A model generated the notes under the pieces. That model was not told the DNA's origin. It saw only the letters and a list, made by a program, of their open reading frames with translations, and did not search any database. A DNA stretch of 20,775 nt from positions 1 to 20,775 of IMG/VR virus record IMGVR_UViG_3300033153_001675; one strand, written 5' to 3'. The translations under genes and the position numbers were made by a program. The first letter of the stretch is position 1. Every line of letters starts with the position of its first letter. The DNA comes from a virus. Below are positions 4,322-20,750 of this stretch, in pieces.

Positions 4322-4571
4322 TTAAGATAATGCTTCAATATCTGTAGCAGTAACTTTAGAACTTAACTCTGTTAATGGAGCTGGCCCTGAACAGCCTTCC
4401 ATTACATCAATAGCTTTTACAACAGTAAAAACATCTGCAGCAGTTAAGTTAGAAGCACCTGTTATTTGTACTTCTTTATTAGCCATATATCCTATGACTA
4501 CTTTGTTCGATGTTAATTTAACTGAACCTACACCATCGGCAGATACTATTTGCTAATTTTATGTGTCCCAT
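4322..4571 (-). pseudogene. Small post-capsid gene, frameshifted near 4547
   Basis: Two overlapping reading frames look like the halves of one small protein of about 82 aa. An ATG at 4569-4571, 31 nt after the capsid stop, opens MGHIKLANSI and then runs into nonsense and a stop. In the +1 frame the sequence continues as IVSADGVGSVKLTSNKVVIG, then MANKEVQITGASNL, ending at a TAA (4322-4324). Small marine-phage proteins starting with a hydrophobic strand plus 'SADGV' are familiar, so the fusion is believable. If translation instead starts at the internal ATG (4484-4486), an intact 54-aa protein results. Possible explanations are a real mutation, a sequencing or assembly error, or recoding; I see no classic slippery heptamer. 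The UUCG terminator follows directly. Confidence 0.55.
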
Positions 4572-11966: not shown

Positions 11967-12238
11967 TTACTTCTCCCTTCTGCAAAACCTTTAAATGGTT
12001 TAATTTCTCTTTTATTTTCTAAACCTTTTAAAATGTTCTCTTCTTCTTCTATACGTTGTAGTATTTCAAATGCGTCCATAATACAAAGCTTTTTAGTGGC
12101 TGCAGCATTTTTTAATCTATCTGCTGCTAAGTCATCTGAGTCATTAGTTATAATTTGCTCTTCTGCTACTTTAATTAACTCGTCTACAGCTTTACGCCCA
12201 GCTCGGATTATATTCTTTCTCGTCTCCTTCGTATTCAT
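11963..12238 (-). CDS. Small-terminase-like protein
   Basis: A 91-aa helical protein whose stop overlaps the large-terminase start (ATGA). Conserved pieces are NIIRAGRKAVDELIKVAEEQI (centre at residues 9-28), DLAADRLKNAAATKKLCIMDA (about 36-56) and ILQRIEEEENIL. The position directly before terL and the all-helical, basic N-terminal section fit a DNA-recognition subunit of the packaging motor, and I recall near-identical patterns ahead of terL in uncultured marine phages. No helix-turn-helix can be proven by eye. The ATG at 12236-12238 lies 47 nt inside the preceding GroES-like gene, with no better start further in, so the overlap is probably real. Confidence 0.6.
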   Translation of the reverse strand: MNTKETRKNIIRAGRKAVDELIKVAEEQIITNDSDDLAADRLKNAAATKKLCIMDAFEILQRIEEEENILKGLENKREIKPFKGFAEGRSK

Positions 12239-12776
12239 GGATTAAAGCTATATCATTTGATTTCATACAATAAAGTCGTTCACCTTCTACAATAAACTCA
12301 AACTCAGAGTTAGGCGTGAACGTAATAAGTGTCCCAGGTGTTATTTTAAGAGCTTCTAAGGAACTATTGCTATATTTAACTATACCAACATTAGGTTGCT
12401 CTTTACTAATGCTAAATTTCTCTTTATTTAAAATAGGTTTAACAAAGCAATAATTTAAATGGCTATTGCCATTATACATATATATTTGAAAAGGAGAACA
12501 AAAGTAAAGATCATCTTTAAAATATGTTCCACTGTTTCTTTCAATACCTTTTATATCATAATATCTTCTAAATATATTATGATGTACATATACTATATCA
12601 CCTGTTTTTACTTTAGTTTTAAAAGCTGCAGGCGTAGAAACGACAACAGCTTTCTTACTAACAAACTTATGATCTTCAATACTAGTGTTAACAATGAGGG
12701 TTTTATCATCGATCTTCTTTGTATTATCATACCTGTCGTTAAAAGGTTTTATTATAAATTGATATAAACTTTTCAC
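12192..12776 (-). CDS. GroES-like co-chaperonin, possibly with two barrel domains
   Basis: A 194-aa protein starting at GTG (12774-12776), whose first base is the last base of the preceding TAG. Residues about 26-100 hold KKAVVVSTPA (41-50), VKTGDIVYVHHN (56-67) and FKDDLYFCSPFQIYM (86-100). Residues about 108-183 hold VGIVKYSNSS (130-139), ITPGTLITFTPNSEFEF (145-161), EGERLYCMKSNDIALI (164-179). Both halves show the GroES order: valine-rich strand, vxxGDxVxf, then xxxxDIxxI. I recognise this as a tandem GroES-like layout seen in marine phage structural operons. Phage GroES analogues such as T4 gp31 work with host GroEL to fold the capsid protein, so a capsid-folding role is a reasonable inference given the neighbouring head genes. 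Confidence 0.55.
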   Translation of the reverse strand: MKSLYQFIIKPFNDRYDNTKKIDDKTLIVNTSIEDHKFVSKKAVVVSTPAAFKTKVKTGDIVYVHHNIFRRYYDIKGIERNSGTYFKDDLYFCSPFQIYMYNGNSHLNYCFVKPILNKEKFSISKEQPNVGIVKYSNSSLEALKITPGTLITFTPNSEFEFIVEGERLYCMKSNDIALIHEYEGDEKEYNPSWA

Positions 12777-13000
12777 TAGTATTTTAAATCGTATTCAACT
12801 GATATAGCCATATTACGATTAAACTTTTTCCAAGGTAATACTTCATTGTTTTTCTCAATGAATATATTATAAGACTGATCATTGTCTTCAAAAAGAATAT
12901 CGCTAATAGTATGTCCACCGTATACTTCCTGACCAGTAGAATAATGCATAGCATCATTTTTATAGTCAGAGCCTATACTAATCTTCCTTATTATTTTCAC
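12776..13000 (-). CDS. Conserved small phage protein, 74 aa
   Basis: I chose the GTG at 12998-13000 because a clean AGGAG lies six bases upstream; an in-frame TTG at 13024 would add eight residues but has no such support. The product begins KIIRKISIGSDYKNDAMHY and has NEVLPWKKFNRNMAISVEY near the C-terminus. I recognise the pattern from small genes beside head genes in marine phages, but no function is known to me. It overlaps the upstream gene by 23 nt and its TAG overlaps the GTG of the GroES-like gene by one base (TAGTG), so both junctions look coupled. It contains no membrane segment and no cysteine. Confidence 0.62.
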   Translation of the reverse strand: MKIIRKISIGSDYKNDAMHYSTGQEVYGGHTISDILFEDNDQSYNIFIEKNNEVLPWKKFNRNMAISVEYDLKY

Positions 13001-13214
13001 TGTATTCTCCTGTTTTAAGATCAACGTCTATATTACCATACTTATCTTGAAGTTTCTTTTTTACATTTTCTACAACTGATCTTTCTTGAGCAGCTTTAAT
13101 TAGTAGTTCGTTTTCAACAAGCCTCATGTGGCCTAGTTGATAAAGTGTATTGTTAAAATTATTAGAAACTTCTTTTACTTCAGATAACTCTTTTTTAGTT
13201 ATTTTATTTGCCAT
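12978..13214 (-). CDS. Small coiled-coil phage protein, 78 aa
   Basis: A 78-aa helical protein. Residues 6-55 are a continuous charged helix with heptad-like hydrophobics (VSNNFNNTLYQLGHMRLVENELL). The C-terminus carries DKYGNIDVDLKTGEY, a 'KYG-ID--TG-Y' ending I recognise from small conserved marine-phage proteins of unknown function. No catalytic motif is visible. It may act as a chaperone or assembly factor, but that is only inference from its position in the head operon. The start ATG follows three TTTAA repeats that include the stop of the methyltransferase gene, with no Shine-Dalgarno. The 3' end overlaps the next gene. Confidence 0.6.
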   Translation of the reverse strand: MANKITKKELSEVKEVSNNFNNTLYQLGHMRLVENELLIKAAQERSVVENVKKKLQDKYGNIDVDLKTGEYSENNKED

Positions 13215-13224
13215 TTAATTTAAT

Positions 13225-13794
13225 TTAATTTTTAATATATGCCCATGAAGAATCTAAAAATACTATTACTTCTTCTGGGTTAAATTTTTCGTCAACTGCT
13301 TTTTTGACGTCTGACCAACTGTAATCATGGCCAGCAATTATGCCTTTATACTTTAGCTTTGGTAGACATAATTCAATATCTTTTTTTACATCTTCATACT
13401 TGTGACTTGCGTCTATGTATATAAATTCAAACTCACCGTTTGGAAACTTAGGCACTTCATCATAGCTATAACCTTGGTGATGGTATATATTGTTAAAGTA
13501 TCTTGTATTTTTATTATACTCTGATTTAACTTTTGACCATGTATAACCAAATTCTTTATTAAACTCTTCAGTACCTTTGAATGGATCAACACTATGTATC
13601 TCGCTAAATATACCACTAGCAGCTATCATTTGAGTCGACTCACCCATGTAGCTACCTACTTCTAAAGCTTTACCGTAATCAGGTAAGTTATCGCAAACAT
13701 AATTTAATAAAAATGCAAAGCCAAAAAAATGATTATTTTTAGCTCTCCCACTCATTCTCCAAGGAAGATGAGTGTTAAATCTTTGAGTTATCAT
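13225..13794 (-). CDS. Class I SAM-dependent methyltransferase
   Basis: A 189-aa single-domain methyltransferase. Motif I, ALEVGSYMGE (43-52), binds SAM. SVDPF (68-72) provides the acidic residue after strand 2. FIYIDASHKYEDVKKDI (124-140) matches the D-x-SH-x-Y-x-x-V-x-x-D pattern of the Methyltransf_24-type small-molecule or sugar O-methyltransferases, and GIIAGHDY (151-158) is the usual following strand with metal-binding-like His/Asp. DNA-methylase signatures such as DPPY or PC are absent, so DNA methylation is unlikely. The substrate is unknown; a host surface sugar or a virion component are possibilities. The start ATG overlaps the upstream stop by one base (TAATG). Several aromatic residues near the N-terminus might contact substrate. 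Confidence 0.82.
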   Translation of the reverse strand: MITQRFNTHLPWRMSGRAKNNHFFGFAFLLNYVCDNLPDYGKALEVGSYMGESTQMIAASGIFSEIHSVDPFKGTEEFNKEFGYTWSKVKSEYNKNTRYFNNIYHHQGYSYDEVPKFPNGEFEFIYIDASHKYEDVKKDIELCLPKLKYKGIIAGHDYSWSDVKKAVDEKFNPEEVIVFLDSSWAYIKN

Positions 13795-14150
13795 TAATAA
13801 TACGCTAATATTTCAGTAGCAGTAGTACCATCAGTTCCATCTTTGCCATATATTTTTTTAACAAGTACAGGCATAAAAGTACCAGTAGGTACGCCTACAA
13901 ATTTAACAGGTGTAGTATCTCCTTCTAATAATACTTTAACATTACCTGTTCCGCCTACATATAAGCAAGCTCCTCTGTGTAGCACAGCTACTTCATCAGC
14001 AGCAGGTGTAGGTAGTACATCTTGAGCTACGTCATTTTTCCCAGTTCCACTAGCTATTGTTATAGCATTAGCAGAGTGAGCAAATCGTCTTGGCTCAGCA
14101 GCCATGTTACCTTCTAGTCCAGCAATATCTATTTCTATTGATCCAGCCAT
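13794..14150 (-). CDS. Decoration-like small virion protein (putative)
   Basis: A 118-aa Gly/Thr/Ala/Val-rich protein with alternating hydrophobics and no lysine-rich tail. The C-terminal FVGVPTGTFMPVLVKKIYG (84-102) followed by TTATEILAYY resembles a short beta-structured protein common in marine phage head regions ('FVGV-G-FLPV-VK-V' then 'TTA--I-A-'), which I believe is a decoration or spike-like virion protein. HRGACLYVGGTGNVKVLLEGD (core 59-77) fits jelly-roll-like strands. The role is inferred from pattern only. It starts two bases after the end of the holin-like remnant, behind a coding-strand run of AAAT repeats, and its TAA overlaps the start of the methyltransferase. Confidence 0.55.
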   Translation of the reverse strand: MAGSIEIDIAGLEGNMAAEPRRFAHSANAITIASGTGKNDVAQDVLPTPAADEVAVLHRGACLYVGGTGNVKVLLEGDTTPVKFVGVPTGTFMPVLVKKIYGKDGTDGTTATEILAYY

Positions 14151-14151
14151 T

Positions 14152-14509
14152 TTATTTATTTATTTTTGTTATTTTTTCAGCACCACGACTTCCGAAGTAT
14201 GCTACATAAACTGTTACCAGTAATGTTTTTAAAAGGTCTAGTGTTTTTACTTAGCCAAGAGTCTGACTTCATGTCTGCTCTCCATCTACTTGAAACCTCT
14301 TTTAACTCTTGCAAGTCTTGTTCTATCAGCTTCATAGCCTGCTCTTTATCAACAGCCTTGATCTTATTATCACTTGTTATAAGATTTTTTACTACACCAA
14401 GACCGCCTTGATCAGGTAATACGTCGCCAATAGCTTCTAAAACTTTAGGCGCTTTGCTAGCCAAAAAAGCTCCGATCTTAGTTTCTTTGAAAGTTTTTTT
14501 GCTTTCCAT
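14152..14509 (-). pseudogene. Holin-like gene with internal deletion and frameshift
   Basis: The ATG frame (start 14507-14509, overlapping the upstream TAA) encodes KETKIGAFLASKAPKVLEAI, then DVLPDQGGLGVVKNLI, a charged helix, and KSDSWLSKNTRP. This is the N-terminal part of a holin-like family in marine phages that normally continues into two or three membrane helices. Here the frame becomes FKNITGNSLC and stops at 14177. In the +1 frame, starting exactly at the same bases, the text reads LDLLKTLLVTVYVAYFGSRG then AEKITK and stops at 14152-14154. That is the expected final helix and tail of the family. The central helices (I expect roughly 30-40 residues) are missing. The junction lies in CTAGACCTT (coding strand), compatible with deletion between short direct repeats. 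Confidence 0.62.
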
Positions 14510-15300
14510 TACTTGTCTTTCTTTTTACCTATTAAGTTTTTAACCATCATAGCTCCTTTAATAATAGTAGCAGGATCTAACGCATTAGAGACAGTCTTTT
14601 GCTCTAACTGATCTGTTACTACATTTTTAATCCTGTCAGCATCTCCTGTGCTGCCTATTACAACAGTGTTATCTGTTTTAGCTTTAGTAGCGTTTCTATA
14701 TTGCGCAACTAATTCACTAGGCCCTTCTCTTAATATTTCTTCTTTTGTCTTAGGTCTTTTATAACCTAACTCTGGGTCATAAACTCTTTTATCTCTAACT
14801 TGAGAATATATCCTATTGTACAACTCAGTACCTATTTGATCTGCTGAAGGTTTAGCGTCTTGTTTAGGTTGTGTTTCAACTGTTTTAGGTTTATTTATAT
14901 ACTCTCTGCTTTTTTCAGACTCTAACTCTTGTTTTTGTCTATAAGCTTCCGCAGCTGCTGTAAAATCTTCAAAAGATTTATACTTGCTTTTTACGTTATC
15001 TCTATTTTCGTTCCAAGCATCTCTGTCAGTTCCTTCACCTTTTCTTTTAGATAAAACTTCTGTTTCTATATAATCTCCTTTTTCGTCTGTACCTTTAGTT
15101 TTTGTAGTAGATACTATTTCTTTTTTACTACTTTTTAAGTTTTCAGTCGCTCTATTATCAGCACTTTTCTCAACTTTTTTAACTTTATCACCTGGGCCTT
15201 CCATTAAATAAGTTGGAGTAACAAGACCTTTACGGACCATTGGGTTGTCTGATCCGTAAAGTTCTTTTGATTTTCCTTGGAATTTTAATTTAAAAGCCAT
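14509..15300 (-). CDS. Lys/Glu-rich hypothetical protein with MAFK start
   Basis: A 263-aa hydrophilic protein. It starts MAFKLKFQGKSKELYG. Residues 40-130 are rich in Lys, Glu, Thr and Asp, with a motif SKYKSFEDFTAAAEAYR (105-121) also present in the next gene upstream (15306-16496). The C-terminus LDPATIIKGAMMVKNLIGKK (centre about 241-259) could be a short amphipathic helix, followed by a basic end. No enzymatic motif is visible. It is the last gene before the holin-like remnant, and its stop overlaps that gene by one base. I cannot assign a function; a virion-packaged or ejected protein is possible but unproven. Confidence 0.6.
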   Translation of the reverse strand: MAFKLKFQGKSKELYGSDNPMVRKGLVTPTYLMEGPGDKVKKVEKSADNRATENLKSSKKEIVSTTKTKGTDEKGDYIETEVLSKRKGEGTDRDAWNENRDNVKSKYKSFEDFTAAAEAYRQKQELESEKSREYINKPKTVETQPKQDAKPSADQIGTELYNRIYSQVRDKRVYDPELGYKRPKTKEEILREGPSELVAQYRNATKAKTDNTVVIGSTGDADRIKNVVTDQLEQKTVSNALDPATIIKGAMMVKNLIGKKKDK

Positions 15301-15305
15301 AATAT

Positions 15306-16496
15306 TTATCTATTACTTTTGAAATGCTTAGATAATATGCTTCCTAGTTTTTTAAGTTGCTTACCAGGTGCAGCCATATTTTTAGCAGCATAACCACCAC
15401 CATCTTGATTAGTTTTCATTTTAGGCATACCACCGTGATGTTTTTCAGCCATACTATCATAACGCTTAGCATTAGTATCATAACGCATAGTATTAGTTTT
15501 GTAATTCATAGCCATAGTATCTTTCATGTTAGCATGGCTAATCATAGAGCTAATATCTTTATCTAGTCTTTTCTTACCTGCTTTGCTAGCATTTTTCTTA
15601 TCTTTTTCATCAGCAGCAACTCTAATAGCAATACCTTTAGCAGAATTGTTATACTTAATTTTTTGCTTAAAATAAGCAGCAGGCGTTTCACCTCCACCGT
15701 ATCTGTTACTTACTGTTTCTTCTTTTGATTCTTTTTTCATTTGTCTTACAGATTTTCCTCTTTGATCTGCTTCATTTTTTTTATAAGCTCTTGATCCGAG
15801 TAGTTTAGAATAAGTTGATCCTGGACTAGTATCTAAAGCTATGTCAGATGCTACTGCTGCATTTTCTGCATAATTTTTAACTTTTCCATCAGCGCTACGT
15901 TCTTTAACAAGTTTTTTAGCTTTTCTTAATTTTTTCCTTTCACTTGGTTTATCAGAAGCCATAGCTTTGTTTTCAGGTTTTTTACCTTCTAGTTTATCTA
16001 TCTTCTTGTTAATTCTATCAGTTTTATTTGAAGCTCTTTTAGTTTTTCTAGCTTCTTGAGCAGCAACTCTTTTAACTTTTCTTTTAACTTTACCCTTCAT
16101 GTCAGAGTCTTTGATAGCTTGCTTAGCGCCTTTAGCATCTCCAGCTTTAATAGCGTCTTCAGCTTTTTGCATAGTAGTTTTAGCTTTAGGAGCTTTTGGC
16201 TTAACAGGTGCTATTGGCTTAGCTTTTATTGGATCCATTTTAACTTTGCTATCAGATTTAGTTTTAGCAAGTTCCTCTTTACTTATTCCTTTTTCTTTAG
16301 CAGTTTTTGTTGGTTCTGTAGTTCCGTATTTTTTAGTGTTATAAGCTTTAGCAGCTTTCTCAAAGTCTGCAAAAGTTTTATATTTACTTTTGTCGGCATC
16401 TTTATATGCTTCTTTGTAAGTTTTCATTGCCATAGTATGTACTTTTTTAGTTATGGCTTCAAACTCTTTTTTGTATGTCATTGCTTTACCAGGCAT
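15306..16496 (-). CDS. Large Lys/Ala-rich basic protein
   Basis: A 396-aa protein dominated by Lys, Ala, Asp, Glu and Arg. Residues 25-53 carry KTYKEAYKDAD then SKYKTFADFEKAAKAYN, the motif shared with the following gene. Residues about 78-105 are Pro/Lys-rich, like the histone H1-type tails of DNA-binding proteins. Residues about 130-205 are strongly basic (KVKRKVKRVA, RKKLRKAKKLVKE). A Met/Asn/Tyr/Asp-rich stretch around 325-350 repeats M-x-Y-x-T-N-x-x-R-Y-D. The C-terminus is QLKKLGSILSKHF. Nucleic-acid binding is likely from composition; the rest is unknown. Its long antisense open frames arise from this composition. The ATG lies 6 nt after the HEDVH gene stop. Confidence 0.62.
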   Translation of the reverse strand: MPGKAMTYKKEFEAITKKVHTMAMKTYKEAYKDADKSKYKTFADFEKAAKAYNTKKYGTTEPTKTAKEKGISKEELAKTKSDSKVKMDPIKAKPIAPVKPKAPKAKTTMQKAEDAIKAGDAKGAKQAIKDSDMKGKVKRKVKRVAAQEARKTKRASNKTDRINKKIDKLEGKKPENKAMASDKPSERKKLRKAKKLVKERSADGKVKNYAENAAVASDIALDTSPGSTYSKLLGSRAYKKNEADQRGKSVRQMKKESKEETVSNRYGGGETPAAYFKQKIKYNNSAKGIAIRVAADEKDKKNASKAGKKRLDKDISSMISHANMKDTMAMNYKTNTMRYDTNAKRYDSMAEKHHGGMPKMKTNQDGGGYAAKNMAAPGKQLKKLGSILSKHFKSNR

Positions 16497-18563: not shown

Positions 18564-18977
18564 TTAAAGTTTTCTACCTTTTTTATCAACTTTAACTTCC
18601 TTTACTATAACTCTAGTACTAGGTTTTTTGTTTTGTAATTCTTCTAACTGTCTATTAAGCTCTTCTAATTTACCATCAGCTTCCGTTCCATCTTTAATCA
18701 TACTAGCAGTTATACTAATTTCTTCCTTTAATATATCTTGAGTTTGTTCTAGCATTTCTACTTGATCTTTCAACTGCATAATCATTTTCTCGTTCCACTC
18801 TTCTTTTAGTTCATATTCTAAACGAGTGACTTCTATAGGTGGTAGCTTTTTAGCTTCTTCAATATCTGCTTGCAATGTATAATACATACCTACAAAAGAG
18901 GCTGTAACCATTATTATAGCTACTACAGTTTTTAAGTCAAGTTGTATGTTGGTGTTTTCAGAGATCTTTGTACTCAT
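18564..18977 (-). CDS. i-spanin-like protein (Rz-type), 137 aa
   Basis: A 137-aa protein with one N-terminal membrane helix (residues 17-35: TVVAIIMVTASFVGMYYTL) followed by a long periplasmic-type coiled coil (about 38-108) rich in Glu, Leu and Lys, and a basic C-terminus. That is the layout of an inner-membrane spanin (Rz). It directly follows the amidase and overlaps it by 20 nt, which matches lysis-gene order in many phages. No partner o-spanin with a lipobox is visible nearby. I chose the ATG at 18975-18977; an in-frame TTG upstream at 19013 would give a 149-aa form but is a poor start. The spanin role is inferred; a generic membrane-anchored coiled-coil protein remains possible. Confidence 0.62.
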   Translation of the reverse strand: MSTKISENTNIQLDLKTVVAIIMVTASFVGMYYTLQADIEEAKKLPPIEVTRLEYELKEEWNEKMIMQLKDQVEMLEQTQDILKEEISITASMIKDGTEADGKLEELNRQLEELQNKKPSTRVIVKEVKVDKKGRKL

Positions 18978-19371
18978 TAGTTGCATCAAATGACGGGCAT
19001 GCTTTATTAGCAAACTCGTTGTGTGAATATATACTAGCTTCAGGGTACATTGCTTTTAAAGTATAAAGCACTGACAGTAAAGCGTCTTTTTGTTTTTCAG
19101 TTCTAGTATCTTTCGGGGTCTTGCCATCTTCTTCAACGCCTCCGCAATAACAAATTCCTATAGAATTACGATTGTGCCCTTTGCAATGAGCCCCGATTTT
19201 AGCTATATCTCTACCACTTTGTATGTCTCCATTTATGTCAATGTAGAAATGATAGCCTATGTCTGACCAGCCTCGACCTTCTACGTGCCACTTTCTTATT
19301 GTGTCTACACTTATATCTTGGCCTTCTCTTGTAGCTGAGCAGTGAATAATTATCTCTTTAATATTTCTCAT
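18958..19371 (-). CDS. N-acetylmuramoyl-L-alanine amidase (T7 lysozyme-type endolysin)
   Basis: A 137-aa Amidase_2/PGRP-type endolysin that cuts the amide bond between muramic acid and L-alanine in peptidoglycan. Zinc ligands line up with T7 lysozyme: H10 in EIIIHCSAT, H117 in YSHNEF and C125 in KACPSFD. The catalytic Y40 (GYHFY) and K123 are present, and AHCKGHNRNSIGICYCGG (61-78) is the usual central motif. There is no signal peptide, so it needs a holin to cross the membrane. Length is close to T7 lysozyme (151 aa), with no separate cell-wall domain. It starts at an ATG overlapping the upstream stop (ATGA) and is followed by the spanin-like gene. Confidence 0.93.
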   Translation of the reverse strand: MRNIKEIIIHCSATREGQDISVDTIRKWHVEGRGWSDIGYHFYIDINGDIQSGRDIAKIGAHCKGHNRNSIGICYCGGVEEDGKTPKDTRTEKQKDALLSVLYTLKAMYPEASIYSHNEFANKACPSFDATNEYKDL

Positions 19372-19781
19372 GATGTCGGATTTAGTCTATTAACTTCTCC
19401 TACCAACTTTAAAGTTTCAGAAGCCTTATCTATATCTTGCTTTTGTTTTGCTTTTAAATCTTGCTTAGCTGCTCTTTTATATTTACCAGCAGCACCAGAT
19501 TTTCTAATAGCTTTTTTATCACCTGTTTCTATAGCTCCTTCTAATGTTTTCTTTTGCTCTCCAGTTAAAGAATTATCTTTTTTCTTGCCAGGTTTTACTT
19601 CATCTGGTTCAGCTTTACTTATATTAGAACTAATAGGTGGAACTATATAACCGCTTTCATCACTGCCTAACATGTCTTCTATAGACTTTAAGTTAGCTAC
19701 AGTTTCATCAGCTGGATTTTTTATTTTACCTACCATGCTTACCATAGTGCTGATGTCTCTTCGCTTTTTAAACTTCTTCAT
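19368..19781 (-). CDS. Hydrophilic hypothetical protein, 137 aa
   Basis: A 137-aa protein with no membrane helix and no recognised domain. The N-terminus is basic (KKFKKRRDIS); the middle is Pro/Ser/Asp-containing and probably disordered; residues about 68-125 are Lys/Ala-rich and helical (KKAIRKSGAAGKYKRAAKQD, then LKAKQKQDIDKASETLKLVG). The basic C-terminal half resembles the composition of the downstream mini-proteins. It overlaps the small membrane-protein gene by one base (TAATG) and the amidase by four (ATGA), so it belongs to the lysis operon by position. Its role is unknown. Confidence 0.6.
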   Translation of the reverse strand: MKKFKKRRDISTMVSMVGKIKNPADETVANLKSIEDMLGSDESGYIVPPISSNISKAEPDEVKPGKKKDNSLTGEQKKTLEGAIETGDKKAIRKSGAAGKYKRAAKQDLKAKQKQDIDKASETLKLVGEVNRLNPTS

Positions 19782-19936
19782 TACTTATTTTTTAGCTTCC
19801 ACCATTTATGAGCCGTGTAACCTATAGTCATTAATAGCAGTATTACTTCTAATATTGGTTCCATCCAATCTAAACTTGCGATTGTAAATGAAGTTATATT
19901 TAAACAATATAACTTTAAATCTTCTATACCAATCAT
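19781..19936 (-). CDS. 51-aa single-helix membrane protein, candidate holin
   Basis: A 51-aa gene whose ATG overlaps the previous stop (ATGA) and whose TAA overlaps the next ATG. It has one strong hydrophobic helix (residues about 27-41: EPILEVILLLMTIGY) after a mixed N-terminal segment, and ends in HKWWKLKNK, a positive tail typical of tiny phage holins and membrane disruptors. It lies two genes upstream of the amidase. Small size, a single helix and a basic tail fit a pinholin- or class III-like holin, but any phage membrane peptide could look similar. It gains weight because the other holin-like gene (14152-14509) appears broken. Confidence 0.5.
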   Translation of the reverse strand: MIGIEDLKLYCLNITSFTIASLDWMEPILEVILLLMTIGYTAHKWWKLKNK

Positions 19937-20084: not shown

Positions 20085-20750
20085 TTAAAATGAAGCTTTA
20101 AGAAGGCTTCCTAGTTTTTTCTTTTCTCCAGTGTTTGGATCTACATAAGAAGTAGTTACTCTTCCATCTCCTTTACTCATGTTTGTTTTTCTTTGTTCTT
20201 CCATTTCAACCTTAGTAGAGTCTCTTTCTTCACCTGTAGACGCATTATAAGATTTACCACTACCACTTGGACTATATTCAACATCTAGTTCTGGCAATAC
20301 AGTTCCTGTAGGAACAAATGGCTTTTCACCTTCAGTTCTTGCAATTGGATTTTTCATTCTTGCCACTGGATTTGGTACATATTGGTTTCCTGGTACATTA
20401 CCACTTCCTGGTAAAGCTCCTGGTATATTTGGATTTACTTCTGTAAATTGTTTCATGCCTTGAGCGTTAACTATGGCACCATTTTGAAAAGGCATTTGAC
20501 CCATATCAGTTTGATTGATCATGTTATTGTTCATCATACGGACTGGTGATCCAGCTCTATTAGTTATTGTAGCGTTTTCTACAGCAGCTTTAAACTTAGG
20601 ATTATTATCTAACTTTCCATCTGCAGCAGCTTTTTTTAAACCTTCGTTAAAATTTGCCATGCTACTATTAGGATCTATTCCTCTGTTATTTCTACTACCA
20701 CCTAGAACTATATCTATTGAGTGGCCTCTTGTTTTTCCTGGTACTCCCAT
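20085..20750 (-). CDS. Low-complexity Asn/Pro/Gly-rich hypothetical protein, 221 aa
   Basis: A 221-aa protein with a probably disordered middle. Residues about 70-105 are rich in Asn, Met and Gln (MMNNNMINQTDMGQMPFQNG at 72-91), about 105-150 in Pro, Gly, Asn and Val, and 155-200 in charged residues. The start MGVPGKTRGHSIDIVLGG is more ordered. The C-terminus EKKKLGSLLKASF resembles the end of the 396-aa basic protein (QLKKLGSILSKHF). No enzyme motif is seen. It starts at an ATG overlapping a preceding TAA by one base, so it is coupled to a gene off the right edge. A virion or ejected protein is conceivable but not shown. Confidence 0.55.
   Translation of the reverse strand: MGVPGKTRGHSIDIVLGGSRNNRGIDPNSSMANFNEGLKKAAADGKLDNNPKFKAAVENATITNRAGSPVRMMNNNMINQTDMGQMPFQNGAIVNAQGMKQFTEVNPNIPGALPGSGNVPGNQYVPNPVARMKNPIARTEGEKPFVPTGTVLPELDVEYSPSGSGKSYNASTGEERDSTKVEMEEQRKTNMSKGDGRVTTSYVDPNTGEKKKLGSLLKASF

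Follow-up and report, generated by a model that had tools for sequence, protein, structure and literature searches.

The family closest to the gene examined here is PHROG 3427, annotated as 'holin', into which the ca. 150-aa relatives from IMG/VR also fall. A described counterpart is the holin gp14 of Nonlabens phage P12024S (NC_018271), which shows 42% identity over 84% of an intact relative of the gene; it is annotated as a holin directly after the endolysin gene, and its holin function is an annotation only. In contrast to the P12024S arrangement, the holin-like gene of the window (i.e., the whole 20,775-bp stretch of DNA analysed, a virus record corresponding to a marine phage contig) is broken and lies 4.5 kb from the amidase gene, and unlike PHROG 3427 members it lacks ca. 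33 profile positions, with the reading frame changing at that site. The Pfam family PF11351 (GTA_holin_3TM) also matched the intact relative weakly (residues 51–106), but membership was rejected because the score of 16.0 bits stayed below the cut-off of 24.8 and the protein has two hydrophobic helices rather than three. Among cultured phages, the terminase of the window is nearest to those of phages of Flavobacterium, Cellulophaga, Tenacibaculum and Maribacter, and a gene for a GroES-like co-chaperonin (phrog_13932, E-value of 1e-18) is situated near this terminase at 12192–12776. A search of cultured-phage DNA with positions 13000–16000 of the window gave no match, and a search of plasmids with the intact protein gave no relative.

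An uninterrupted protein of 149–151 aa is encoded in all 80 of the closest IMG/VR relatives (the best 80 of 181). One of these, locus L001 on the 16.6 kb contig G001, aligns with the window gene at the DNA level without any mismatch, interrupted only by one gap of 95 nt, and its intact protein matches phrog_3427 continuously from position 14 to 139 of 141 (E-value of 2.3e-21). The N-terminal part of the intact protein is soluble and helical, whereas hydropathy peaks were found at residues 93–111 (2.12) and 120–138 (1.35). An AlphaFold model of low confidence (pLDDT 58) agrees in secondary structure with the helical N-terminal part and places further helices at residues 84–112 and 119–148. The intact relative was thus positive both for the phrog_3427 profile and for C-terminal transmembrane helices. 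A holin role is predicted for the intact gene from its family annotation, the pair of C-terminal helices and the location of gp14 behind the endolysin gene in P12024S. As a membrane lysis protein, its product would insert a two-helix hairpin in the inner membrane and so let the endolysin out.

Both ends of this protein can still be read in the window, but in different frames (Table 1). The minus-strand ATG frame starting at 14509 encodes 110 aa including ...SDSWLSKNTRP, and the +1 frame contains LDLLKTLLVTVYVAYFGSRGAEKITKINK before reaching its stop at 14152; as the preliminary description of this locus had noted, the two frames run through the same bases at 14233–14241 (AAGGTCTAG on the plus strand). 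When the frames were scanned separately, the left half matched phrog_3427 at profile positions 14–79 of 141 (E-value of 3e-9) and the right half at positions 113–139 of 141 (E-value of 0.006). Because each frame by itself finds the same family, their coexistence at 14152–14509 is more than chance, and the halves follow each other in profile order with ca. 33 positions missing in between, as had been anticipated for the remains of a single family. The proposed loss of a central piece, joining the halves out of frame, is borne out by the single gap relative to L001, and the 95 nt absent come close to the insert of about 100–150 bp that had been predicted.

Specifically, the 95 missing nt encode hydrophobic helix 1, the loop and the beginning of helix 2, so that the rest of helix 2 is shifted out of frame. 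The earlier view that the central membrane helices had been lost therefore holds for the first helix and the loop, but was overstated in that the intact protein has two helices, the second of which is frameshifted. The product of the window's own ORF contains no hydropathy segment above 0.9, and this truncated protein (92 native and 18 foreign residues, without a membrane helix) is presumably inactive. The holin-like gene, conserved elsewhere, is present in the window as a null form.

Table 1. Location of the interrupted holin-like gene, its parts and other features in the window.
Feature	Position	Strand	Remark
89-aa gene with second private deletion (20 nt at 4548/4549)	4322..4571	-	intact in G001 and G006
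Small tail-fibre-like gene (phrog_12296)	13794..14150	-	other alleles in close relatives
Holin-like gene (phrog_3427) with 95-nt internal deletion	14152..14509	-	358 nt vs. 453 nt in near-identical G001
Right half, second transmembrane helix and tail (LLKTLLVTVYVAYFGSRGAEKITKINK), +1 frame	14152..14232	-	DNA strongly conserved among relatives
ORF of left frame	14177-14509	-	110 aa: native part plus 18 foreign residues, then stop
Deletion junction	14231..14232	.	1-nt ambiguity in placement; 95 nt of G001 absent here
Left half, 92 native codons (MESKK...SKNTRP)	14234..14509	-	
Amidase_2 endolysin	18958..19371	-	4.5 kb from holin-like gene
51-aa protein with hydrophobic helix near amidase	19781..19936	-	

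The 3′ end of the holin-like gene is itself subject to marked conservation. Over its last ca. 90 nt (window positions 14152–14240, compared across L001–L080) the top synonymous codon had a mean frequency of 0.90, compared to 0.76 before this part, and the observed mean was reached in none of 20,000 permutations. Moreover, several relatives were identical to L001 at 81 of 81 nt at the gene end, while being only 82–94% identical just upstream. This conserved end sits immediately before the variable phrog_12296 gene, the alleles of which (ca. 91–179 aa) have a common G-x-x-GN-x-x-A-x-PRVF-like N-terminus and conserved flanking genes in several relatives. The conserved gene end may serve as a recombination linker next to a cassette that has been exchanged.

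Among the contigs searched, the 95-nt break is private to the window, and so is a 20-nt deletion in the 89-aa gene at 4322–4571. The frame of the latter gene was open in 27 of the 27 relatives identified, of which some are truncated at the end of their contig. The gene is also intact in G006 (locus L089), another near-identical contig, which differs from the window by 4 SNPs over 4.2 kb; the first ca. 26 nt of this gene are nearly invariant at the DNA level among relatives. Over the 16 kb shared with G001, the window differs by the two large gaps, both of which are out of frame, by 15 SNPs at scattered positions, of which 13 are synonymous, and by a divergent patch at 20563–20727. This ca. 165-bp patch is strongly diverged from G001, alters part of the N-terminal region of a 221-aa protein, and suggests either that a segment was exchanged or that G001 is erroneous at its end. 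Around the two interrupted genes, no indels of at least 10 nt were present in 53 comparably close contig pairs (224,760 aligned bp with 513 substitutions). Neither junction was found in IMG/VR when sought as an exact 35-mer and 34-mer, and a looser search with a 20-mer matched only two contigs, both unrelated.

Since a second, unrelated and frame-breaking private deletion is present while the remainder of the window is near-identical to intact contigs, we lean towards the missing DNA being an error of this contig, originating from assembly, gap closing, polishing or a library chimera. In this case, the intact holin-like gene would be present in the actual phage population. The zero mismatches with L001 outside the gap, the intact gene in all of the best 80 of 181 relatives and the lack of comparable indels in 225 kb all speak for such an error, and the earlier suggestion of a recent event, an assembly error or a minority variant fits these data. 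In addition, one end of each deletion coincides with a transition between conserved and variable DNA. Assembly is made difficult at such sites by microdiverse strains, and for viral metagenomes the confounding effect of microdiversity on assembly has been documented (PMC6487183). The main point against a contig error is the clean junction, which contains no N. It likewise counts against such an error that de Bruijn assembly normally depends on real k-mers spanning a junction, and that no strain mosaic is present in the flanks. It also weighs against a contig error that contigs very near the window may be missing from the searched set and that two deletion events are few.

A genuine recent deletion is a serious, if less probable, possibility. 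The phage genome, or a minority of the molecules in the sample, would in that case have lost both pieces (95 nt and 20 nt), and the phage would be either defective or able to lyse its host via another protein, such as the 51-aa membrane protein encoded close to the amidase. Such a deletion is consistent with the clean junctions without N and the flanks identical to G001, and with the grouping of the amidase gene and two further hydrophobic-helix genes at 18.5–19.9 kb, away from the holin-like gene. The region 18564–19936 (encoding the amidase, a 149-aa and the 51-aa protein) is possibly a separate lysis cassette, and the 51-aa protein, which has no PHROG or Pfam match, is possibly another holin. 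The neighbouring 149-aa protein displays one membrane helix and a charged, coiled-coil-like region. Nevertheless, the holin-like gene is intact in every relative seen (the best 80 of 181), both gene-breaking deletions stand beside mostly synonymous changes while none of such size occur in 225 kb of similar pairs, and neither junction was seen elsewhere in IMG/VR. That the deletion is real and has moreover become fixed in a living lineage, with the conserved holin-like gene just lost as dispensable and lysis proceeding via another small membrane protein near the amidase, appears improbable. Most likely, the locus does not represent a new kind of gene, but a contig error or a defective copy.

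The preliminary description had attributed the event to recombination between two copies of CTAGACCTT, given that the single copy left in the window is read through by both frames. This origin is very unlikely: G001, although otherwise identical across the gene, has CTAGACCTT only once, and the other breakpoint reads GTTGACTTATTAAAAAC in L001–L005. The exact microhomology at the 95-nt junction amounts to 1 nt, a value that 48% of random breakpoints equal or exceed, and the best 10-nt match between the breakpoints (6/10) is reached by 15% of random breakpoints. The 20-nt junction shares only 1 nt as well. The 95-nt event thus does not appear to be repeat-mediated as far as the parent G001 indicates, a verdict that takes G001 as the parent and that a direct ancestor with a different second site would escape. 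The ends of the 95-nt deletion also carry a 7-nt complementary run of A and T only (an inverted repeat encountered at 2% of random places), and no inverted repeat was present at the ends of the 20-nt deletion; as a cause, this element was rejected as too weak.

It is equally hard to credit that the short form is functional, be it as a soluble truncated protein or as a product joined by +1 ribosomal frameshifting. Although 110 aa can be read from the left frame without a stop and the sequence of the right frame is conserved, the best 80 of 181 relatives all encode the protein in one frame, none being short or needing a shift, and the truncated product is devoid of a strongly hydrophobic segment. 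The short form is accordingly not the normal gene, and the idea of two different overlapping genes, for which it can be said that both frames are open, can safely be set aside since the halves match one profile in order and the relatives fuse both in one frame.

These findings argue that a gene found broken in one metagenomic phage contig alone should first be compared with near-identical contigs and only then be interpreted biologically. Should the deletion prove real, it would provide a natural test of whether lysis in these flavophage-like viruses depends on the conserved holin-like protein.
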